This document shows positions 23,126-64,000 of a stretch of 64,000 nt of DNA, piece by piece (position 1 is the stretch's first letter; every line of letters starts with the position of its first letter). The stretch is from contig OZ024890.1 of assembly GCA_964017195.1 (NCBI GenBank), forward strand, positions 23,869,201 to 23,933,200, read 5' to 3'. This DNA is from Siderastrea radians (Eukaryota; Cnidaria; Anthozoa; Scleractinia; Rhizangiidae). A program made the translations under genes and the position numbers. The notes under the pieces are model-generated. The model searched no databases. It saw only the letters and a list, made by a program, of their open reading frames with translations, and had not been told where the DNA came from.

Positions 23126-25233
23126 CTATCCAAAGCAATACCCTTTCCTGGGGATTCTACCTTGCGGTTGCGTTTGAGTAGTATTTCGATAGTAGGCCCT
23201 AATAGTTTTATTCCCGCGTTTATCTCTTGGTTTGTCTGGCAAAATATCTTAAGAGCGTAAATATGCGGGATGTAAAGGCCAAAAAGGTACCATCGCAAGT
23301 GCACTTTTTACGAAGACAGTAATTATATAAATGACAACTCGAAACCGTTTTCCTTTGATGAGAATTACATACGGAAGTATTCGTCCCCTACCAATTTGTT
23401 GAAATAACGTCGGTTGTCCTGAAAGGAATCTTTGCTTTTTATAGTTTATGGTGTATACCCTGGGTTGTCCTATTTGGGATTGAACTATAATTAACGTTCA
23501 TTGCTTACGTTTCTATTTCGATTGAACAAATTGAGACGATTGCGTGTTTTGGCTTGGCTGACTGATTCACTGCATTTTATATTACTTAAAGATTTACCAA
23601 ATGGGATGACCTTGGTTTGGTTTTTACATTTTGTTTTAGACTTGTTAGGTAGCTTCATGGCAAATGTAAATACGTTGTGTAAAGTTAGTATATGCGATGA
23701 TTAAATGTCGCAAAGTATTCATTTTACTCGTTGACTCTGAGCCCAATTTTGGTTGATAAGCATACTTTGTTTGTTTTTTCTCCTCGTGAGGAAAAATAAA
23801 AGCCGTAGCGGATAAGCTGACTTTTAAGCACTGTATTACTACTAATTTGTGCCCTTTCAAAAAGGTTAAATTTACCGACGTTTGTCTGGCAATGACACTC
23901 TAAAAGTACCATAGTTTTCATCGAGTTGTAATTGATTTACAACAGACTGTTTGCTGTCAGCAGTTTTATGACAGTTACTAAAATTAATAATAATGATCTT
24001 TTATAAGGAAGCTTCCTCACAAATGTGGTTTCGACTATATGTTTTTGCAGTGTAGTAAAGTGTTGTTGTGTTGTATTATTTGTTGGAGAAGTAAAGTCAA
24101 TTTTTTAAAAAATTTATCCATTTTATATTATAGTTTATTTAATTTTAAATTTATTTATTTTATCTACAATTGCAATGCAGTTGAATCTGCCGTAACCACT
24201 ACCCTCAGGAAGTGGTTTCGTACAAGAAATAATCACTGCTAAGAGATTATAGTACATCGTCGGACTGAAAGCTGCTTCAAACAGCCTTTGGCGCTGCTTT
24301 GAGGATGCCGCTTGTGAGGAAGGCGCTGAGGGAGACTCAACTGTATGGCACAGTAAGTAAAGTAGTATCCAAAAGAAAACTTGTAAGATTTTGCAACTGT
24401 TAATAAAATAGTATCTGTGAAATGTTACTTATCGAAGCCAAGAAAGTTTTAGTAAATATCATTTTGATAAGGAAACACCTCATTTGCATTTACGTTTAAC
24501 ACAAATGAGGTGTTCCGTATCAAAATAATAACATAGTAGTTATTCGCCGAAACTTTGATCGTGTTTTTCTCACTCTATGACTAGATGACGTCCTTTTCTC
24601 GAAACTGTTTTGTATATTTCATTTTCATGTTATTGACAGGTTGAAAGTTCTCAGACGTTAAATGGCAACTATATCCCTTGAGAAGCCAAAAAAACGGACG
24701 TTGGTTTTGAAACAAATATAGGTCAAATAAACAGGCTTATTGTAACCGCGCACTGGTCAAAGTCGAATGCTCTTAAACATTTTTGTTTGGCAGTGATTAG
24801 TTAGCTGCAGATGATTAGCGTACAAGGTCATTCTAAGTTTTTTTAAAGTCTGTACATAAATCCTTAAGTGTATCTCGTTCGTTCTTTCCTGTATGGCTGC
24901 TAATTACGCTGTGTAAGGTTGTTCTAGATGAAATCCTAGGGAGTGACCATGCAACCAAGTTTCCTAGCAGTACATTCCTGTGTGGTGCTTTTTGTTTCCA
25001 AACCTTCCCAAGTAAAAATTTCAGAAATTTCAACATATTTTTATTTAATTTTTATCTTGGCAGTCTTTGCAGAAATCGAACATCTAATGAATGTCACGCA
25101 ACGTCTTGGGGTATGTAATGTCAAATTGGACGAAATATACGTGAGTTGCAACACAAAACAATTTGATTTTTCTCCAATTCTAGTCATTTTCGTCGACTTT
25201 CATAGTAGGTCCCCAACGTCCGAGATGGATGAG
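23126..25233. other. Intergenic stretch downstream of the Schlafen-like gene
   Basis: It presumably includes the 3'-UTR; AATAAA signals occur near 23797 and 24404. A strong hairpin lies at 24461-24526. No open frame here is convincing. It ends at the GATGAG target site (25228-25233) of the next transposon. Confidence 0.5.
24461..24526. repeat. Hairpin with ~25-bp arms
   Basis: ATTTTGATAAGGAAACACCT, then CATTTG (24461-24486) pairs with 24502-24526 with one mismatch and one bulge. The same hairpin occurs in copy 2 at 60938-61003. It may be a tiny foldback element or a structured 3'-UTR segment. Confidence 0.65.
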
Positions 25234-25693
25234 TATGGTGGCCCATCATTATCACTCCATTTTACGCTATGAAATGTGATGTATCGCTTTCATAATAAAT
25301 TTCATTTTAAGTTAATTATTTAATTTCCAGTGTAATTTAGAACCAAAACGGAGTTTTTATTTCATTTGTTATTTCAAATGCATTTGCAAAGTCATATTAT
25401 TAAGCAGTGTTATCATTTTCAGATCAAAAGACAATCATGAAATACATATATTTTTAAAGATTAATATTAAAACTGTTGATGGATAAAAATATAAAATATA
25501 ATCATCAGTTTCCGAAGGAACAAAATAAAAAAAACATATTCGAAAGGACCAGCGTTACCATTTCACTGAAGGAACAAAATAAAAATTAAAATTCGAACGG
25601 ACCAGCGTTATCATTCCACGCGGTAAGGACTGGGGCTTGGCTGGCTTTTTCAAGATGGCGGCCGTGTTGTGATTTCAGCCGTGGATATCGCTA
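25234..25693 (+). repeat. Left terminal inverted repeat of the IS3EU-like element
   Basis: 460 bp, matching 33587-34037 reversed with few differences. It contains two tandem ~55-bp subterminal units (about 25514-25568 and 25569-25620), each with GAAGGAACAAAATAAAA and GGACCAGCGTTA; these could be transposase-binding sites. Near the inner end lies AAGATGGCGGC (25652-25662). The transposase ATG follows 20 bp after the repeat ends. Confidence 0.85.
25652..25662 (+). promoter_or_regulatory. YY1-like motif in left terminal repeat
   Basis: AAGATGGCGGC matches the metazoan YY1 core consensus and lies about 50 bp before the transposase ATG, a usual place for this initiator-type element. The mirrored site is at 33618-33628, upstream of the kinase gene; copy 2 has it at 62129-62139. 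Function is inferred. Confidence 0.4.
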
Positions 25694-26288
25694 TTTCTGT
25701 AACGCAGTAAAGTATGGCCTCGAGGAGTGAATGGAAAGAGGATAATCAGTTGGAACACGACTTAAGAAAGTACGTCAGTCAAAATTTAAAAAGGTCAGAG
25801 ATTCTTGACTTTGTTCAGAGAGATTTTTCTGAATATACTTGGAGTACAGCAACCCTTGACCGACGACTTCGCCACTTCGGTATATATTATATAAATTATG
25901 ATATCCCAGTTGAAGCTGTGTCAGATGCTGTCCAGAAAGAGTTGGAGGGGCCTGGAAAATTGTTAGGCTACAGAGCAATGAATCAGAAGCTGAGAACAGA
26001 GCATAACGTACAGGTACCACGCCATCTTGTTTACAACGTGATGGCTGAATTGGATCCCGAAGGGCTCGAGGCCAGAAACCTTCAACAAAAAAAGAAAAAA
26101 AAAAGGGTCACTTCACGTCTGACGGACCGTTGTGGGTGGTTTCCTTAGATGGCCACGACAAACTATGTGGTTATCAAAACTCCACATTTCCACTGGGTGT
26201 GTACGGCTGTATTGACACATTTTCTCGCAAAATCCTCTTTTTGTTTGTATGCTACTCAAATTCGAACCCTTTAGTCATAGGCAAGATG

Positions 26289-27440
26289 TACAGACGCTTT
26301 GCTAGCTATTCAGCACACTGTATACAGCTACTTAGATCAACCTGACTGCAAAGCTGTACGTCTTTTTACTATGGATTTTAGTAAGGCTTTTGACTCTGTC
26401 AAACACTCCTTACTACATGAAAAACTGAAAAACCTTCCACTGAACCCGTATGTTATCAATCTCTATCTGGATTTTGTAAAACACAGGCAACAAAGAGTCG
26501 TCCACAATACATTTTCAGGGCTTTGGAAAGAGGTCAATCAAGGCACTACTCAGGGTAGTGTCAGCGGCCCCTACCTATTTAATATTTTTCTAAATGACCT
26601 CGAGATTAAAAATGGCTCTACAACTTGTTTGTATAAATATGCGGACGACTCCACCATTATTGCACCGGTGTGGAGGGATATAGACTGTTCAAACAAGTTA
26701 GTAATGCAGTTCTTAGAATGGTCAAAAAACAACTGTATGACCTGTAATCCTAGTAAATGTAAAGAACTTGCCTTTGTGAAAAAAGGCAATGCACAAATCT
26801 TTGAGAGAGTAGCTGGAATACCTCAGGTTAAGGAACTTGTTCTGCTGGGTGTTACTTTCCAGTCTGACACCCGATTTAACACTCATGTAAAGAACAAACT
26901 CACAAAAGCAAACAAGTCTCTCCATGTGCTCAGGACGCTTAGAAGAGAGGGGTACAATCAATCAGAAATTGACTACCTTTTCAATTCTATTGTACTACCA
27001 AATATCTCATACGGGCTTGCGGTGTACGGAGCCGCTGAAGCTGAACTAACAACGATCCAGTGTTTTTTGGATAGGTATAAGAAGCGTAGGTACATCTCAC
27101 ATAGCATAGATATCCAAGATCTTTTAGAAAAACAAGGTAAGAAAATATGCACTAAAGTTATGGGCTTAGAGGGTCACCCGCTGTATAACATGTTGCCGGA
27201 GGTTAAGTACACCAAATACGAGCTTAGAAGAAAGTCGGCCGTGAAACCTAAAATAAACACGAAGCGCTTCATGAGCTCTTTTATTAACCGCCTTACTTTT
27301 AAATACAAATTAGCTGATTTATTTCATTAGAATAATAGTCTTAGTTCATGTAATGTAGCTTGCTTTTTACCATCAATTTTTGTGACATAGGATATGTGTA
27401 TATCTTATGAAATAAAGACTTATTATTATTTATTATTATT
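26289..27440 (+). mobile_element. 5'-truncated non-LTR retrotransposon (CR1-like LINE)
   Basis: One open frame, 26299-27330, codes for the palm of a LINE reverse transcriptase: [35 protein letters not shown] and the catalytic KYADDST (YADD at 26638-26649). A C-terminal domain ending [13 protein letters not shown] follows. No endonuclease domain is present, so it is truncated at the 5' end. The 3' end has AATAAA and a (TTATTATTA)n-like tail, as in CR1-type LINEs. It sits inside the transposase gene in both duplicated copies, so it inserted before the duplication. Confidence 0.75.
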
Positions 27441-29092
27441 TATTTGAATCAGAGATGCTGCCAAGAAATCTGCAAGTTGATAGAGGAACAGAAACTGGGA
27501 AAATGGCCACAATTCACGTATTCCTTTTAAACCGGCATGGGATTATGGATGATCCCACTGATTCCATTATTTACGGTCGCTCGACAAGCAGCAAAATAGA
27601 GCGATGGTGGCGTGAATTACACGAAAGATTAGAGAAGTTTTTTAAAGAACAACTGACAGCACTTTTAAAGTGCCACTGGGACGAAAATTCATAGGTTTAT
27701 TTTGGCCAAATTCTATCGCAGAATATCGCGTTTTGTTCATATTTCTCCAGAAAACTGAACAACAAACCTTCCGTCCTAATATTTTTTAGCTCCAAAGTCG
27801 CGTAAAATGTGTCCGCCATTACTGAAAATGTGTTCCTGGGTGATTGCGCAATTTAATGGCTTGTGACGTCAGAGGCTCACCTCAGTCGCGTTTCCTTGTG
27901 TTTTGACTGAAGATGTCGACCGTCGACTGCGAAACCTCCGAAGAGTATTTCTACGATTCGGAACAGTCTTTAGCTTCCGAAGCCTCTGAGGATTCGTTTC
28001 ATTCGGCAAATGAAGAATTTTTCGTACCGTACGATGTAAGAACTGATGTGAGGTTTCAACTAATAATCTTGTCAACAAACTGTTTAAAGTTTTTTTTCTC
28101 GCCATATTATTTGAGTTATTTGGCGGGAGTTCAAAACATAAGCGAAATATGCTTAGACAATGATTGTAGTTCAGGCCCCAGTTGCTCAGAAAGTGGATAA
28201 CTCTTTTTCAACGGATAAGTCGCTGTCCTGTGGATAAAATTTATCGCTTCATTTCAGTTGTTCAAAGCTTGGATAGCGCCGATCCAGCCAGCTGTTCAGC
28301 CGCTATCCAGCGATCATAAAGTTGTCCATTCCAAGATAGGTTGTGTAACTTTTATCCACTGTAAACCTGTAGCAAAATAGACATGGCTATTCGAAGAATT
28401 GATCTTTTAAGCTGTGGAAATTTAGACAAAACACCTACGAAAACTTTAGACTTTGATGCTCGCGAATTCTCAACCATGGGTCGATCGATGTGACTGTTGG
28501 TGTGGGAGAAAATAAAAGAAGCGATACTTTGTCTGCCGTTGTTTATGTTCATTATATATTATAAAAAAAAGCATTGAAATTTTTGGCCATTCTTGGCATA
28601 GTCTGGGAAACTTTCTTGAAAAACCGTAATTGTTGTAATCAGCTGGCAGGCAGCTTATCGTGTCTATCATGGTACAGTGGTCACTCAACACATTGAAACA
28701 CAAGTGCTTGGCGCTGCTAAATATTTTAAACAGTTTTTATAGAATTCTTTTTCTGAGCCGAAAGAAGTGAAATATATCAAAACCTTTTTTTTTCAAGAAC
28801 TGGAGGCCTTGTGTGACCGGAATCTAAATATTTGTAGTCAAAATTAAAAGCCACAAGGAAAATTTTCCGCTGCTCAACAACAACATGCGGACCGCCGAGG
28901 AAACGAAGCGTTCGCTTGCCTTATTCGCTGCGTAAAAATAATAACTTGACATTTAATCATTTTTCTTAGTAGTTCGTTTACTAAGATTGCTATGACAGGC
29001 AAAAATAAATAACATTGTTAAACCCTTAGGCAAATTGTGGCGTGTGATATTTTTCCCAACTTCAATTTCCACGCACCGACGATCGAACAACA

Positions 29093-29640
29093 ACAACATT
29101 TTATTTGCATTTCCAATCACAAATGCCATTGCACATAGAAAGGAGAAAGAAAAAAAGTTGCAAAATTGATTAATTTACAATTCCTGTGTCTATTGATCCA
29201 TTTCTTAATGCAGAATTCGTAAATGAAGTAACCTAATTTTTTACAAGTGAAAGCGTCAATGCTATTTAAGAGAAATACAATTTTAAGAATCGAAATCGGA
29301 ATATTTACTAATAATATCGTCCATTAAAGATTTTCTAATTGCATCATATTTATTGCAAGATAAGAGGAAGTGTACTTCGTTTTCAACTTCATTTGAGCTG
29401 CAGCATTGACAAATTCTCAGATGCTCAGGGAGTTTAGGGGTGGAATGTCTTCCATTTTCAATTCTTAGGTTGGAATTACCTAACCTAAGTTTTGCTACTG
29501 CCCGAACAATAATGTCAATCGACTGTTCACCGACAGGGAATAAAGAGAGAAAAGTTTCTCCACATTCAGGATGGTTTGTTATAAAATAAATGTCCATGCT
29601 TCTAAGCGATTACTGCTCTGAAATTAACACACGCGGAATT
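29093..29640 (-). mobile_element. LINE 3' fragment nested in the Kolobok-like element
   Basis: The minus-strand frame 29597-29283 reads a LINE C-terminal region: AKLRLGNSNLRIENGRH, ICQCCSS and NEVENEVHFLLSCNKY. This has the CxxC...H...C pattern seen at the end of many non-LTR retrotransposon proteins. The 3' end carries AATAAAATGTTGTTGTTGTT, a microsatellite tail. It is 5'-truncated and differs from the LINE at 26289. Confidence 0.65.
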
Positions 29641-29865
29641 AAAAAAGGAAAAGATAAGCAGTACAAACTATATCAGCTTAATCACGGCGGTCAGGATTGC
29701 ATTCGCCGAGGATCTTCGCGCTAGCAGACGGCAGAACTGAAAGGGTTTTCCTCGACGATAATAAATTTCAAAATACGTTAAAAGAAAATCAGTTTTGCAC
29801 AATGGTGGATGCGTTAAAGAAGAAACAAACTACCACTTCAACTGCGTTATAAGATTAGGTAAGTT

Positions 29866-30160
29866 ACCTTTCGTCTTGTTCGCGCAGATAATGTTTTTTT
29901 CGGTCCTTTTTTCCATATAGTTGGAATGGGCAATGGAATAATCGACCTCTGAGATCTTGCGACATGAACAGCCTTCTGGAAAAACTCGTCGGTGAAGTGA
30001 TCAAAATGCCTCTCGGGTTGAAATTCGCACTGTGTGTGAGTAAGAACATTGTCCTTTTTTCCATTGAGGGTCCGCTCGCAGGGCTTCAATGAAGGAAAAT
30101 ACCAGCTCGGTGGTTGGATTTATTGTTGTGGCATTGTACAACACAAGTACTACCTGTCAT
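29866..30160 (-). pseudogene. Degenerate THAP-like zinc-finger exon
   Basis: From an ATG at 30160 (minus strand) the frame gives MTGSTCVVQCHNNKSN, with the C-x3-C spacing of a THAP finger. A stop follows, and the later part (QCEFQPERHFDHFTDEFF, IPLPIPTIWKKG) lies in another frame. A donor (AAAG, then GTAACT) ends it. It resembles the first exon of a Kolobok-type transposase, now inactive. Confidence 0.45.
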
Positions 30161-30889
30161 TACTGCTGCAGCAAGGAAGATTTCAAAGTCGTAGACAAAC
30201 ACTTAGCAAGAAATCTTTCCTCGAGGACAATTTACTTTCCAGTGGCAAGTAACCATGTGAAGGCACTAGGTTTGAGGTGAGCCTCTGACGTCACTTCCGC
30301 TCATTCGCAAGCCAGCTTCCGGAACAAGGGCAGTAATGGCGACCGCAAAATCTCGACAAAAACCGTCCGAAAAAAGCGACTTATATTTGTCGTAATAAGT
30401 TAAAATTTGGCATGGTGACTACGAACCACAAACTATGTTCGAAAATGTAAAAATATGGAATGCCAAAATTCTGGTCTCAGTGGCACTTTAAGAGGAAGAG
30501 AATATGACCCACATGTGGCACTTGACAGACAACTGCTTGCTTATGTCTTCAGACCAATTGTCCAGCGGGAGTGTGACATATTTGTCAACTACTGGAATTT
30601 TCATAGAATTCGAGGGCAAGATGAACTAGAAATTCCAGCTGGGGTACCAGATCACATGTTTTCTTTCCTGGAGCAATATGGGGGCACCAATATGGGGATC
30701 CCATTGAGCAAGGATGAATTAAAAGAGGTTGCTGATATATCTGGTGTCATGGATGAAGATGTGTTGGATTTTATTGACCCAAGAGTGAAGAGGGAATGTT
30801 TGCAACTCCTTTCAAATCCAGAAAGAGTGGAATTAAAGAATGCTATTGAAGCATTTCGGTTTCTTAAGAGGAGTATTACATCTCCTTAG

Positions 30890-32633
30890 GATACTGGATA
30901 AAATCAACATATGTATTTTTAATACAATCAGAACAGCTGAGTTCTTGTTGAATGTTTATTTCCTGACAGTTGAACTTGGGCAAAATGTTTATCATCCATA
31001 AGGCCAACCTGAGTATTGTTTGCAACTAGGCCCATTTTTGAGTACACAAAATCATACACACAAGCGAACAAGGCTGGCAAGGCTGATTAGCATGAATATA
31101 AAAGATTAATTAAATGCCTGCCATTCATGCATTTGGTCTAGAAATTAGAGGTATAAAATGGTTCTGTGGATCATAATCCCCAAGAAGAGAGGTCCTTTAC
31201 CTATCAGTTTTTACTTTGTTTCCATGGTAACAATGTTAGCTGCATGGGGGCATGGGACCATAGTGCCCCCAAGATATGTAAGTCAATGGGGCAACAAGTG
31301 ACCTGTATGGGGGCACTTCATGCCAAACTGATAACTTTTATTAACAACTTTCATTAAACTATTTAAATTTCAAACAATGTTGGTGCTTTATGAAGTTCAC
31401 AGCAGTGCAGCGGCTCTGCTCTACACAGTTCATAGCAGTTAAAATTTCAACAATAAATGTCCAAAAATGCAGGTGCTCTGCACAGTTCAGAGCAGTTTAA
31501 ATTTTAAACAATGAATGTCCAAAAATGCAGGTGCTTTATACAGTAGATAACAGCATAGAGCTGACTAATGGTAACTGTGAGCGAGTCCACAAAGTCATAA
31601 TAGAAGAATCTGTGATACTTGTAAATAACGTTTTTAGATGTGCAAAGAATTAATGCTGAACTTAGTCACTTAAATACAGCCTAGTAACACAGAGCTAAAG
31701 GTAATAAATACAGCGTAGTAACAAATACAAGTGAAGGTAAGGCTTTACTGACCAAAGTAGAAGGTTCAATGTGTCATATGCTTATTAAACCCAACAGTTC
31801 ATTCGGAGAAGGGTGGAAGGGAGGGAAATAGCTTTAAACAAGGCTAAAAAAATTGAGGCTTTGAGCCCAAAAGTATATCAACCAGTTATTTTACTGTGCT
31901 GTCCACATGTGAAAGGATGTGTGCTATTGGTCAGTGTATGGAATAATAATAATAATAAATACATGCCATGTTTTGCCACGGACATTGTATGATCTATGAC
32001 CTTTGATCATCGTAAGGGGATTTCCCAGATAGCATGTGACACATTGCCCATGTGTGTCCTGGTTGAGGCATTAACTTAAATTTATGAATTGGCTTGTAAA
32101 TAGGATGACTCATCCCCTGCATTGTTCCAAATTATAATGACCCATATAAAAATGATGGGGGTGCTCATCAGAAATTTTCAAAGAACACTCTAAAAAGTAA
32201 GTTTTAAACAACATGAGACATTCTGTCACGTTTTTTTTTCGGCTCAGTACCCTAAAAGGTGCTGCAATAATTCCAACCATCATCATTTTAGATTTCAGCA
32301 ACTCAAAACCAGTCTACAAAATTTGACCCCAATGATTCCCCCCCCCCCTCTCCTGAGTACTTGATGTGTTGGCCATACATTTCCTTAAAATCAAAACTGA
32401 AGCAAAAATTGTAAAGTAAACACAAAATCATGTATTTTAAGACATAGCACCACTTGTTGAATGTTTTGTAATCAGATTGTCGAGAAACAAAGATTTCATG
32501 CAGTAATGCAAACAACAACAGTGTTTTGTCATTAAACACAGATCTTTACGGCAACGAGGGGAAATATCAAAATAGATGTTTGTATTTTAGCATAAACTTC
32601 AAGGGAAGCACAGCATAGAATCCTCACGATTTT
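30890..32633. other. Spacer between transposase and kinase genes, with ~58-bp tandem repeats
   Basis: Bases 31365-31545 contain about two and a half copies of a 58-bp unit (GTTCANAGCAGTT, AATGTCCAAAAATGCAGGTG, CTNTNCACA). The rest is AT-rich with a poly-C run at 32340. No gene recognised. If the two genes are convergent, their 3' ends lie here. Confidence 0.5.
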
Positions 32634-33564
32634 TTAGTATTCATCTTCGATACCCATCGTATCACAATACCTATTACATTGATGCTGCTTTCTAAACTCA
32701 TCGATGGTAACTTGGGATAGGTTTCCTGCACAAAAATAGTATTCATCCGCGTTTTCCGTTGTTAATTCAGTGGTTGCAATTTCGGGATCATACAATTGAA
32801 ACATGGATCCTTGAAGATCAACCAGCATCATCTTCCGCTTTGTAAAGACATAGCTATAATGTACAAGACATTGTGCTTTGGCAAAGACTTCGTCACACGC
32901 TTCCACTGGTGACGTTAAGCAAGCCCCGTTGTTGTTGACATATTTTCGGAATTCGCCAGGTACAAACTCTTCCAGTGTTACTGGAATGTCATCCAAAACC
33001 GAGTAAAATACCTTTCCATACTGGAAGGAATCCCCGAATTCTGCAGGTACTTTGGATGAAAATCTCTGAGTTATGTTCCTGGCTACTGCATGCATCTGGA
33101 CCTGTTTGCGAGTGTGATCTTCCACGGTCGATTTCAAGACTTCCTTGATTGTTGTAATCGACGTCGGCGTGTATTTCTTAACAACCCAGTCGCCCAAATG
33201 GAGATGGTCGTTGCAGGTGGCTTTAGAAGCATCCCTGAATGCCCTGCTCGAGAATGGTTCGTCTTCTATTATGAAATCCAGCGTAGCAACGTTCATCCAT
33301 TTACACTTCTCAACATCAAAGTTCCAGCTGTAATGCAGTAGTCTTGGGCGGTTTTACCAACTTTCCAGCTCTTAAGAGGTGGGCGATTGATACTGATTTT
33401 GGATAGACTGTATTTGGATACACTATATTTCCACTTGCACGCTTGGATGGCGCAACTGGGGCTGATCTCGCGCGCTCTGGAGGCTGCTCAAATCTTTCAA
33501 CTACTTGGGGACGAAAGATGCGTTCGGCATTCTCATTAGGTGGAAGAAATCGGATGAAGTACAC
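32634..33564 (-). pseudogene. Alpha-kinase domain gene, frameshifted near 33316-33345
   Basis: The minus-strand frame from 33296 down codes for most of an atypical alpha-kinase (MHCK/EF2K) catalytic domain. It shows DWVVKKY (K40/K41 counted from that ATG), a hinge-type EEFVPGEFRKYVNNNG, the metal-site VDLQG (D160, Q162), YDPEIAT and a C-terminal GNLSQ...H205-x-C207...C211 zinc motif. The preceding 82 codons (33564-33316), with SIAHLLRAGKLVKPPKTT, belong upstream but are in another frame; about two bases are missing at the join. No ATG lies between the terminal repeat and this frame, which opens with GTG. The kinase core itself has no stop. Splicing around the break or a sequencing error are alternatives. 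Confidence 0.7.
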
Positions 33565-33586
33565 TTCGCGACCTTTAATAGACCTT

Positions 33587-34037
33587 TAGCGATATCCACG
33601 GCTGAAATCACAACACGGCCGCCATCTTGAAAAAGCCAGCCAAGCCCCAGTCCTTACCGCGTGGAATGATAACGCTGGTCCGTTCGAATTTTTAATTTTT
33701 ATTTTCTTCCTTCAGTGAAATGGTAACGCTGGTCCTTTCGAATATATATATTTTTTATTTTGTTCCTTCGGATTATATTTTCTATTTTTATTCATCAACA
33801 GTTTTAACATTAATCTTTAAAAATATATGTATTTCATGATTGTCTTTTGATCTGAAAATGATAACACTGCTTAATATGACTTTGCAAATGCATTTAAAAT
33901 AACAAATGAAATAAAAACTCCGTTTTGGTTCTAAATTACACTTGAAATTAAATAATTAACTTAAAATGAAATTTATTATAAAAGCGATACATCACATTTC
34001 GTGGCGTAAAATGGAGTGATAATGATGGGCTACCATA
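33587..34037 (-). repeat. Right terminal inverted repeat of the IS3EU-like element
   Basis: 451 bp, the reverse complement of 25234-25693 with scattered differences. It holds the same two subterminal units and the same GCCGCCATCTT (33618-33628), here upstream of the kinase frame. The outer end CCATA is followed by the target duplication GATGAG. Confidence 0.85.
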
Positions 34038-34043
34038 GATGAG

Positions 34044-59602: not shown

Positions 59603-62190
59603 CTATCCAAAGCAATACCCTTTCCTGGGGATTCTACCTTGCGGTTGCGTTTGAGTAGTATTTCGATAGTAGGCCCTAATAGTTTTATTCCCGCGTTTAT
59701 CTCTTGGTTTGTCTGGCAAAATATCTTAAGAGCGTAAATATGCGGGATGTAAAGGCCAAAAAGGTACCATCGCAAGTGCACTTTTTACGAAGACAGTAAT
59801 TATATAAATGACAACTCGAAACCGTTTTCCTTTGATGAGAATTACATACGGAAGTATTCGTCCCCTACCAATTTGTTGAAATAACGTCGGTTGTCCTGAA
59901 AGGAATCTTTGCTTTTTATAGTTTATGGTGTATACCCTGGGTTGTCCTATTTGGGATTGAACTATAATTAACGTTCATTGCTTACGTTTCTATTTCGATT
60001 GAACAAATTGAGACGATTGCGTGTTTTGGCTTGGCTGACTGATTCACTGCATTTTATATTACTTAAAGATTTACCAAATGGGATGACCTTGGTTTGGTTT
60101 TTACATTTTGTTTTAGACTTGTTAGGTAGCTTCATGGCAAATGTAAATACGTTGTGTAAAGTTAGTATATGCGATGATTAAATGTCGCAAAGTATTCATT
60201 TTACTCGTTGACTCTGAGCCCAATTTTGGTTGATAAGCATACTTTGTTTGTTTTTTCTCCTCGTGAGGAAAAATAAAAGCCGTAGCGGATAAGCTGACTT
60301 TTAAGCACTGTATTACTACTAATTTGTGCCCTTTCAAAAAGGTTAAATTTACCGACGTTTGTCTGGCAATGACACTCTAAAAGTACCATAGTTTTCATCG
60401 AGTTGTAATTGATTTACAACAGACTGTTTGCTGTCAGCAGTTTTATGACAGTTACTAAAATTAATAATAATGATCTTTTATAAGGAAGCTTCCTCACAAA
60501 TGTGGTTTCGACTATATGTTTTTGCAGTGTAGTAAAGTGTTGTTGTGTTGTATTATTTGTTGGAGAAGTAAAGTCAATTTTTTAAAAAATTTATCCATTT
60601 TATATTATAGTTTATTTAATTTTAAATTTATTTATTTTATCTACAATTGCAATGCAGTTGAATCTGCCGTAACCACTACCCTCAGGAAGTGGTTTCGTAC
60701 AAGAAATAATCACTGCTAAGAGATTATAGTACATCGTCGGACTGAAAGCTGCTTCAAACAGCCTTTGGCGCTGCTTTGAGGATGCCGCTTGTGAGGAAGG
60801 CGCTGAGGGAGACTCAACTGTATGGCACAGTAAGTAAAGTAGTATCCAAAAGAAAACTTGTAAGATTTTGCAACTGTTAATAAAATAGTATCTGTGAAAT
60901 GTTACTTATCGAAGCCAAGAAAGTTTTAGTAAATATCATTTTGATAAGGAAACACCTCATTTGCATTTACGTTTAACACAAATGAGGTGTTCCGTATCAA
61001 AATAATAACATAGTAGTTATTCGCCGAAACTTTGATCGTGTTTTTCTCACTCTATGACTAGATGACGTCCTTTTCTCGAAACTGTTTTGTATATTTCATT
61101 TTCATGTTATTGACAGGTTGAAAGTTCTCAGGCGTTAAATGGCAACTATATCCCTTGAGAAGCCAAAAAAACGGACGTTGGTTTTGAAACAAATATAGGT
61201 CAAATAAACAGGCTTATTGTAACCGCGCACTGGTCAAAGTCGAATGCTCTTAAACATTTTTGTTTGGCAGTGATTAGTTAGCTGCAGATGATTAGCGTAC
61301 AAGGTCATTCTAAGTTTTTTTAAAGTCTGTACATAAATCCTTAAGTGTATCTCGTTCGTTCTTTCCTGTATGGCTGCTAATTACGCTGTGTAAGGTTGTT
61401 CTAGATGAAATCCTAGGGAGTGACCATGCAACCAAGTTTCCTAGCAGTACATTCCTGTGTGGTGCTTTTTGTTTCCAAACCTTCCCAAGTAAAAATTTCA
61501 GAAATTTCAACATATTTTTATTTAATTTTTATCTTGGCAGTCTTTGCAGAAATCGAACATCTAATGAATGTCACGCAACGTCTTGGGGTATGTAATGTCA
61601 AATTGGACGAAATATACGTGAGTTGCAACACAAAACAATTTGATTTTTCTCCAATTCTAGTCATTTTCGTCGACTTTAATAGTAGGTCCCCAACGTCCGA
61701 GATGGATGAGTATGGTGGCCCATCATTATCACTCCATTTTACGCTATGAAATGTGATGTATCGCTTTCATAATAAATTTCATTTTAAGTTAATTATTTAA
61801 TTTCCAGTGTAATTTAGAACCAAAACGGAGTTTTTATTTCATTTGTTATTTCAAATGCATTTGCAAAGTCATATTATTAAGCAGTGTTATCATTTTCAGA
61901 TCAAAAGACAATCATGAAATACATATATTTTTAAAGATTAATATTAAAACTGTTGATGGATAAAAATATAAAATATAATCATCAGTTTCCGAAGGAACAA
62001 AATAAAAAAAACATATTCGAAAGGACCAGCGTTACCATTTCACTGAAGGAACAAAATAAAAATTAAAATTCGAACGGACCAGCGTTATCATTCCACGCGG
62101 TAAGGACTGGGGCTTGGCTGGCTTTTTCAAGATGGCGGCCGTGTTGTGATTTCAGCCGTGGATATCGCTATTTCTGTAACGCAGTAAAGT

Positions 62191-64000
62191 ATGGCCTCGA
62201 GGAGTGAATGGAAAGAGGATAATCAGTTGGAACACGACTTAAGAAAGTACGTCAGTCAAAATTTAAAAAGGTCAGAGATTCTTGACTTTGTTCAGAGAGA
62301 TTTTTCTGAATATACTTGGAGTACAGCAACCCTTGACCGACGACTTCGCCACTTCGGTATATATTATATAAATTATGATATCCCAGTTGAAGCTGTGTCA
62401 GATGCTGTCCAGAAAGAGTTGGAGGGGCCTGGAAAATTGTTAGGCTACAGAGCAATGAATCAGAAGCTGAGAACAGAGCATAACGTACAGGTACCACGCC
62501 ATCTTGTTTACAACGTGATGGCTGAATTGGATCCCGAAGGGCTCGAGGCCAGAAACCTTCAACAAAAAAAGAAAAAAAAAAAGGGTCACTTCACGTCTGA
62601 CGGACCGTTGTGGGTGGTTTCCTTAGATGGCCACGACAAACTATGTGGTTATCAAAACTCCACATTTCCACTGGGTGTGTACGGCTGTATTGACACATTT
62701 GCTCGCAAAATCCTCTTTTTGTTTGTATGCTACTCAAATTCGAACCCTTTAGTCATAGGCAAGATGTACAGACGCTTTGCTAGCTATTCAGCACACTGTA
62801 TACAGCTACTTAGATCAACCTGACTGCAAAGCTGTACGTCTTTTTACTATGGATTTTAGTAAGGCTTTTGACTCTGTCAAACACTCCTTACTACATGAAA
62901 AACTGAAAAACCTTCCACTGAACCCCTATGTTATCAATCTCTATCTGGATTTTGTAAAACACAGGCAACAAAGAGTCGTCCGTCCACAATACATTTTCAG
63001 GGCTTTGGAAAGAGGTCAATCAAGGCACTACTCAGGGTAGTGTCAGCGGCCCCTACCTATTCAATATTTTTCTAAATGACCTCGAGATTAAAAATGGCTC
63101 TACAGCTTGTTTGTATAAATATGCGGACGACTCCACCATTATTGCACCGGTGTGGAGGGATATAGACTGTTCAAACGAGTTAGTAATGCAGTTCTTAGAA
63201 TGGTCAAAAAACAACTGTATGACCTGTAATCCTAGTAAATGTAAAGAACTTGCCTTTGTGAAAAAAGGCAATGCACAAATCTTTGAGAGAGTAGCTGGAA
63301 TACCTCAGGTTAAGGAACTTGTTCTGCTGGGTGTTACTTTCCAGTCTGACACCCGATTTAACACTCATGTAAAGAACAAACTCACAAAAGCAAACAAGTC
63401 TCTCCATGTGCTCAGGACGCTTAGAAGAGAGGGGTACAATCAATCAGAAATTGACTACCTTTTCAATTCTATTGTACTACCAAATATCTCATACGGGCTT
63501 GCGGTGTACGGAGCCGCTAAAGCTGAACTAACAACGATCCAGTGTTTTTTGGATAGGTGTAAGAAGCGTAGGTACATCTCACATAGCATAGATATCCAAG
63601 ATCTTTTAGAAAAACAAGGTAAGAAAATATGCACTAAAGTTATGGGCTTAGAGGGTCACCCGCTGTATAACATGTTGCCGGAGGTTAAGTACACCAAATA
63701 CGAGCTTAGAAGAAAGTCGGCTGTGAAACCTAAAATAAACACGAAGCGCTTCATGAGCTCTTTTATTAACCGCCTTACTTTTAAATACAAATTAGCTGAT
63801 TTATTTCATTAGAATAATAGTCTTAGTTCATGTAATGTAGCTTGCTTTTTACCATCAATTTTTGTGACATAGGATATGTGTATATCTTATGAAATAAAGA
63901 CTTATTATTATTTATTATTATTTATTTGAATCAGTGATGCTGCCAAGAAATCTGCGAGTTGATAGAGGAACAGAAACTGGGAAAATGGCCACAATTCACG
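62191..64000 (+). pseudogene. Integrase-core transposase gene, copy 2 (partial)
   Basis: The frame stays open from the ATG at 62191 through the A-run (11 A's) to the LINE insertion. The first catalytic Asp lies in VVSLDGHDK (GAT 62626-62628, residue 146). After the LINE the gene resumes near 63920, with the second Asp (GAT 63961-63963) in RVDRGTETG. It is still interrupted by the LINE, so it is unlikely to make a full protein. Confidence 0.7.
62766..63917 (+). mobile_element. 5'-truncated LINE, copy 2, with frameshift
   Basis: Same insertion as in copy 1. A 4-bp GTCC duplication near 62977-62984 breaks the RT frame, which then resumes at 63111 with KYADDST. The microsatellite tail is kept. 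Confidence 0.72.

Follow-up and report, generated by a model that had tools for sequence, protein, structure and literature searches.

The closest described relatives of the element considered here are the IS3EU transposons of fungi that carry TET/JBP genes. In the passages of a 2025 study cited here (PMC12730594), all such TET+ IS3EU families are reported to have a transposase and an alpha-kinase gene in opposite orientations, and the TET genes of fungal transposons are proposed to counter silencing. IS3EU/GingerRoot elements, as described in PMC10045372, have TA..TA termini, usually 6-bp target duplications and a DDD/E transposase; the word kinase is absent from the text cited. Likewise, Styx of Zymoseptoria (PMC10853768) is IS3EU-related, was searched for there with 6-bp duplications and has extra genes beside its transposase, but in the cited portion these encode GATA, CCHC and DUF3577 proteins, and the sole kinase mentioned is a host gene. 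Here we describe an 8,804-bp element at 25234-34037 of a 64,000-nucleotide stretch (the window) of the genome of the coral Siderastrea radians (contig OZ024890.1, positions 23,869,201 to 23,933,200). It is very probably a decayed IS3EU-type cut-and-paste DNA transposon in which an alpha-kinase gene converges on that of an integrase-type transposase. A first-pass annotation of the window knew of no DNA transposon described with such a kinase gene; the fungal families reported in PMC12730594 contradict this claim of novelty.

Pairing of transposase and kinase in the Siderastrea radians genome

The window element is flanked on either side by the 6-bp target-site duplication GATGAG, and its termini are of the TATGG..CCATA type. 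Its terminal inverted repeats (TIRs) of 460 and 451 bp align in four main ungapped pieces that are 91-97% complementary (94% over the whole arm). Two genes face each other between them, the transposase reading from the left repeat side and the alpha-kinase from the right, as the first-pass annotation had described. The kinase matches the alpha-kinase family PF02816 with an expectation (E) value of 8e-28 (32637-33296, minus strand). The N-terminal part of the transposase is recovered by tblastn at 25714-26106 on the plus strand, with the remainder scattered round two insertions, and Pfam integrase and helix-turn-helix models match its pieces weakly. A better preserved copy, L013, has an open transposase of 404 residues, an open single-exon kinase of 424 residues and a perfect target duplication. 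Its transposase hits the Pfam family PF24764 ('Integrase core domain') with E 3e-20, and D146, D210 and E250, picked by eye, are its candidate catalytic residues; a sequence search of the PDB with the transposase returned a single row at E 0.85. The TA..TA termini, the 6-bp duplication and the DDD/E integrase-like transposase agree with the earlier placement in IS3EU.

The left repeat had 40 matches in the genome (804.8 Mb, 439 contigs), and 20 regions around them were retrieved. Where both ends of an insertion could be compared, perfect 6-bp duplications were seen in 10 of 13 (the window copy and its duplicate L009 counted once); L017 matches at 5 of 6 bases, and L015 and L019/L008 show no match. 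The termini are TATGG..CCATA or TATGG in the window and most copies, with L014, L015 and L025 deviating at one end. By tblastn in the retrieved regions, the independent insertions with convergent transposase and kinase genes number 11 (the window, L010, L011, L012, L013, L014, L016, L019/L008, L020, L021/L022 and L023/L024). Nine of these have perfect duplications, L019/L008 lacks one, and for L020 the right end is not delimited. L025, L026 and L027 have a single end within the retrieved stretch, L027 with neither gene, and L028 has an incomplete end with the kinase just beyond the stretch.

An empty site was found for L013, rather than for the GATGAG insertion. L013 lies in a long interspersed nuclear element (LINE) of a type also found in the window, and its joined flanks with one GCTATG match window positions 27299-26901 (minus strand) at 395 of 400 bases, with no gap at the junction. 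A LINE fragment of the window (26901-27299) thus happens to preserve the paralogous empty target site of another copy. From the ends, the duplications and this site we infer transposition by the transposase acting at the repeats.

The pairing extends to copies found by their proteins. Scoring 110 of 167 kinase candidates gave 110 rows at 78 loci, and scoring 103 of 852 transposase candidates gave 108 rows at 89 loci; a pair was counted when a convergent kinase lay no more than 15 kb from a transposase locus. Such a kinase accompanies 14 of the 19 transposase loci whose identity is at least 65% and 30 of the 35 at 45-64%, hence 44 of the 54 listed at 45% or above, as against none of the 35 below 45%. 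In any arrangement within 15 kb, the three classes have 14, 32 and 0 loci with a kinase. Conversely, a listed convergent transposase is seen at 45 of the 78 kinase loci, a lower bound. Eight loci with diverged kinases (35-51% identical), hand-picked from the kinase list, all carry a transposase on the other strand, including L030 and L036, which are absent from the transposase list. L029 and L036 have repeats of 417 and 216 bp at 99%, TATGGTGGCC ends that conform to the IS3EU termini and the duplications CTAGTC and CAAATC, and one repeat arm of L031 runs off the retrieved stretch; for the remaining five, the 6 kb retrieved contained no long terminal repeat and so did not show where the elements end. 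Across seven families, the distances between kinases are correlated with those between transposases (Mantel r 0.61, p 0.0099), with L030 and L034 excluded and 246-404 transposase residues covered.

The kinase is retained beside one transposase clade in this genome, and we regard the element and its stable pairing of transposase and kinase as highly probable. The idea of a stable cargo shared by other copies, raised in the first-pass annotation, is borne out by the 11 insertions and the 44 of 54 close loci, and its converse, that copies of the repeat never enclose the kinase, proved false in this genome. A single copy that captured or landed beside a host alpha-kinase gene was also considered and is rejected, its probability being negligible: the pairing recurs in independent copies and in diverged families, and by chance about 0.1 pairs would be expected for 35 loci (estimated from 78 kinase loci, 15 kb either side and 805 Mb).

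A less similar PF24764 transposase class, represented by L037 (G000:C2:16651800-16658800), is present in the genome as several open copies that are equally long and score almost alike, and no listed alpha-kinase lies nearby. Open reading frames (ORFs) on its other strand match a HECT ubiquitin-ligase (E 1e-7), a SAP-like domain (E 5e-5, slightly short of the curated cut-off) and, weakly, a YqaJ-like domain (E 0.045).

Decay and duplication of the window copy

The window copy is old and dead. The first-pass annotation called it complete, and this holds for its ends, which are intact, but not for its genes, both of which are broken. The transposase is frame-shifted and interrupted twice, once by a LINE piece and once by a 2.8-kb element with TTAA flanks. 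The kinase lacks its first ~108 codons and persists as two open parts in different frames (Table 1). The 2.8-kb element has short ORFs only in the ORF listing, and we take it to be possibly Kolobok- or piggyBac-like.

The window also holds a segmental duplication of more than 25 kb, in which 2196-27518 corresponds to 38689-64000 (offset ~36.5 kb) at 99.5% identity. L009 is the same insertion as the window element, duplicated along with the surrounding block. The 2.8-kb TTAA-flanked insertion is present in one duplicate block and absent from the other. Such high identity over such a length could suggest one locus assembled twice, but an assembly artefact is very unlikely, given that the two copies differ by this insertion and that the case for the element class is independent of the pair.

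Table 1. Features of the transposon copy in the window (positions in the window)
Feature	Position	Strand	Basis
Left target-site duplication GATGAG	25228..25233	.	flank comparison
Left TIR, transposase side, start TATGGTGGCCC	25234..25693	+	repeat comparison
Transposase 5' part, frame change near codon 131	25714..26291	+	tblastn with L010 transposase
LINE fragment inside transposase, reverse transcriptase domain, 3' border approximate	26292..27436	+	
Transposase middle part	27437..27668	+	tblastn with L010 transposase
2.8-kb insertion, TTAA flanks, ends AGTGCCACTG..CAGTGGCACT	27669..30487	.	no counterpart in L009
Transposase 3' part	30492..30889	+	ORF list, tblastn
Alpha-kinase domain, ORF of 220 residues	32634..33296	-	ORF list, Pfam
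Kinase part between lost N-terminal region and kinase domain	33319..33582	-	starts at right TIR inner edge
Right TIR, kinase side, end GGGCTACCATA	33587..34037	-	
Right target-site duplication GATGAG	34038..34043	.	
L009, second copy of the window insertion, runs past window end	61711..64000	+	segmental duplicate, without TTAA insertion

The alpha-kinase and its possible role

The predicted kinase fits both the PF02816 profile and the alpha-kinase fold, and the catalytic and zinc-binding residues are retained in the homologue alignments A1 and A4 and in the L013 protein; we assume for these residues the roles that they have in TRPM7. The protein also has a conserved N-terminal domain of its own. 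Besides Alpha_kinase, every Pfam family that matched at E 0.1 did so in at most 2 of the 76 members. A Crinkler-type header was also considered for this region. In the predicted model of P0261 the confident region (about residues 41-122) has the strand order E-E-H-E-E and looks like a beta-grasp, for which we claim no assignment. The PDB structure matches to this model were a list filled by kinases, and viral matches were not significant (two ubiquitin-family rows at E 0.6 among them). Scans of viral contigs and prokaryote genomes with the alignment A1 gave 12 and 30 pattern matches, none a confirmed relative.

Two subtypes differ in this N-terminal region. Full-length copies have ~404 bp common to both ends and a kinase that starts with MKRRK, and in these relatives the inner ~56 bp of the left repeat occur on the transposase side only; they cluster in the kinase-sequence tree with a support of 92. 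In the shortened subtype (the window, L009, L010, L011, L024 and L020) the transposase-side leader, ~56 bp by repeat length, is found on the kinase side as well and the kinase resumes near codon 109.

Several observations weigh against a kinase that is both firmly paired with the transposase and of use to the element. Ten of the 54 close transposase loci have no convergent kinase within 15 kb; two of these have a kinase nearby in another arrangement, and at C5:18239220 (L023/L024) it lies 27 kb off, across a large insertion. Thirty-three of the 78 kinase loci lack a listed convergent transposase, with 103 of the 852 transposase candidates scored; three of them were retrieved (L024, L030 and L036) and all do have one. 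No kinase-domain match was obtained in the retrieved regions of L015, L017 and L018, of which L018 has a perfect duplication. The kinase of the window family is nearest one family group and its transposase nearest another, so some exchange is possible. The shortened subtype, without codons 1 to ~108, is found in at least five insertions, and because it spread to these the N-terminal domain may be dispensable in some mobile copies. Finally, in the young family the nonsynonymous-to-synonymous ratio (pN/pS) is 0.50 in the kinase domain (bootstrap 95% interval 0.32-0.85) and 0.71 upstream of it, with an interval that includes 1.

Purifying selection on the kinase inside the young family is, on these ratios, moderately supported. 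The expectation that intact copies would have an open kinase under such selection holds in part: the gene is broken in many copies, and full-length open kinase frames are listed for L013 and the L021 locus. A host kinase captured once in an ancestor and since carried along as passive baggage would fit the weak selection, as well as the past mobility of copies that lack the kinase domain or are shortened at its N-terminus, unless they were shortened after insertion. We consider this rather unlikely, since the catalytic residues are kept in homologues, the gene is retained in families down to ~36% kinase-domain identity, several copies of other families have open kinase frames, and the L033/L034 kinase pair shows a pS of 0.03 against a pN of 0.003, with few changes overall. 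The kinase is probably a helper of the element rather than pure baggage.

We propose that the integrase-type transposase would cut and paste the TIR-bounded unit, with the kinase as an accessory enzyme that may have been kept through aiding the spread of the element. Its most likely route of action would be to phosphorylate the transposase or nuclear host proteins of chromatin, repair or silencing. Such a role would be comparable to that proposed for the TET dioxygenases of fungal transposons. A specific role in nuclear regulation is our first choice, held tentatively, because the fungal TET genes are proposed to act against silencing (PMC12730594) and because, according to the passages cited, fragments of the TRPM6/7 kinases reportedly reach the nucleus, with histones among what they phosphorylate (PMC13143021). 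The kinase might instead act on the host cell, through addiction or through immune or stress modulation, and not on transposition. Alpha-kinases have varied targets outside the nucleus, such as eEF2 and myosin heavy chain, and the data do not fix the target here; we judge such action improbable, in that Pfam gave no consistent second domain pointing to it.

Homologues in other genomes and comparison with known systems

Related anthozoan genomes were compared through protein lists. Kinase homologues numbered 112 proteins, and a profile search gave 411 (120 listed). Among the matches listed, the named ones come from Oculina, Paramuricea, Actinostola, Exaiptasia, Stylophora, Dendronephthya and the hemichordate Saccoglossus, six of the eight being labelled TRPM6 or TRPM6-like. 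Transposase homologues numbered 510 (120 listed), with Ciona, Clytia, Dendronephthya, Exaiptasia and Actinostola named among the matches listed. Four contigs of more than 30 kb have equal sizes in the kinase and transposase lists (87 and 55 distinct sizes; 0.004 expected), a coincidence that suggests that the two genes share contigs in other genomes. One protein of another genome, P0285 (482 residues; one of 216 kinase-family proteins), fuses the kinase to ~48 N-terminal residues of a transposase of IS3EU type, which looks as though the terminal repeat had extended into the transposase gene.

The invertebrate models P0264, P0271, P0303, P0311 and P0323, named TRPM6 or TRPM6-like, can be aligned to 98-99% of the length of P0088, a kinase of the transposon type. 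The kinase-only cnidarian 'TRPM6' and 'TRPM6-like' sequences of PMC13143021 likewise have a kinase domain without the other TRPM domains, and their database names resemble those of P0264, P0271, P0303 and P0323, a likeness of name; in the cited text they are called wrongly annotated, with no transposon origin given. The transposon kinase is a likely explanation of cnidarian 'TRPM6-like' genes with a kinase domain alone, and some of the marine-invertebrate gene models labelled 'TRPM6-like' or 'myosin heavy chain kinase-like' may accordingly belong to transposons. The alpha-kinase family is also described as highly expanded in rusts (PMC4469406); the passages cited from that study and from PMC4164029, PMC6505742, PMC5295586 and PMC5753468 give no transposon origin for alpha-kinases. 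In open-licence PubMed Central we found no animal element of this type, no clade-wide pairing and no study that traces the kinase-only TRPM6-like genes of cnidarians to transposons.

Compared with the TET+ IS3EU families of rust fungi and Tuber in the cited parts of PMC12730594, the coral element has the same opposed transposase and alpha-kinase genes, and it shares with the rust families 6-bp duplications, TIRs longer than 30 bp and TAYGG..CCRTA ends. The fungal elements have a TET/JBP gene lying between these two genes; in the window element, L010 and L011 no such gene was noticed among the ORFs, in which no TET-specific search was made. The hosts belong to different kingdoms and the kinases are likened by layout, not sequence. 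This link rests on layout because a profile search with the diverged animal kinases gave no fungal name among the matches listed (the best 120 of 411, most of them unnamed). It is conceivable, if speculative, that one ancient IS3EU clade, found in fungi, cnidarians and at least one hemichordate, has the alpha-kinase as its second core gene and requires it for the licensing or de-silencing of transposition, the fungal link being drawn from the printed layout and the hemichordate one from a single protein. If so, a cut-and-paste transposon would have its own protein kinase and be the source of the cnidarian orphan 'TRPM6-like' genes. The kinase offers a concrete enzyme for asking what use a transposon might make of phosphorylation. 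What had been a brief mention for fungal elements is now a tested rule in one animal genome, in which one transposase clade keeps an alpha-kinase and less similar relatives do not. The kinase-bearing IS3EU layout is already known from fungi; to it we add an animal branch, clade-wide retention and a likely explanation of the kinase-only TRPM6-like genes of cnidarians.

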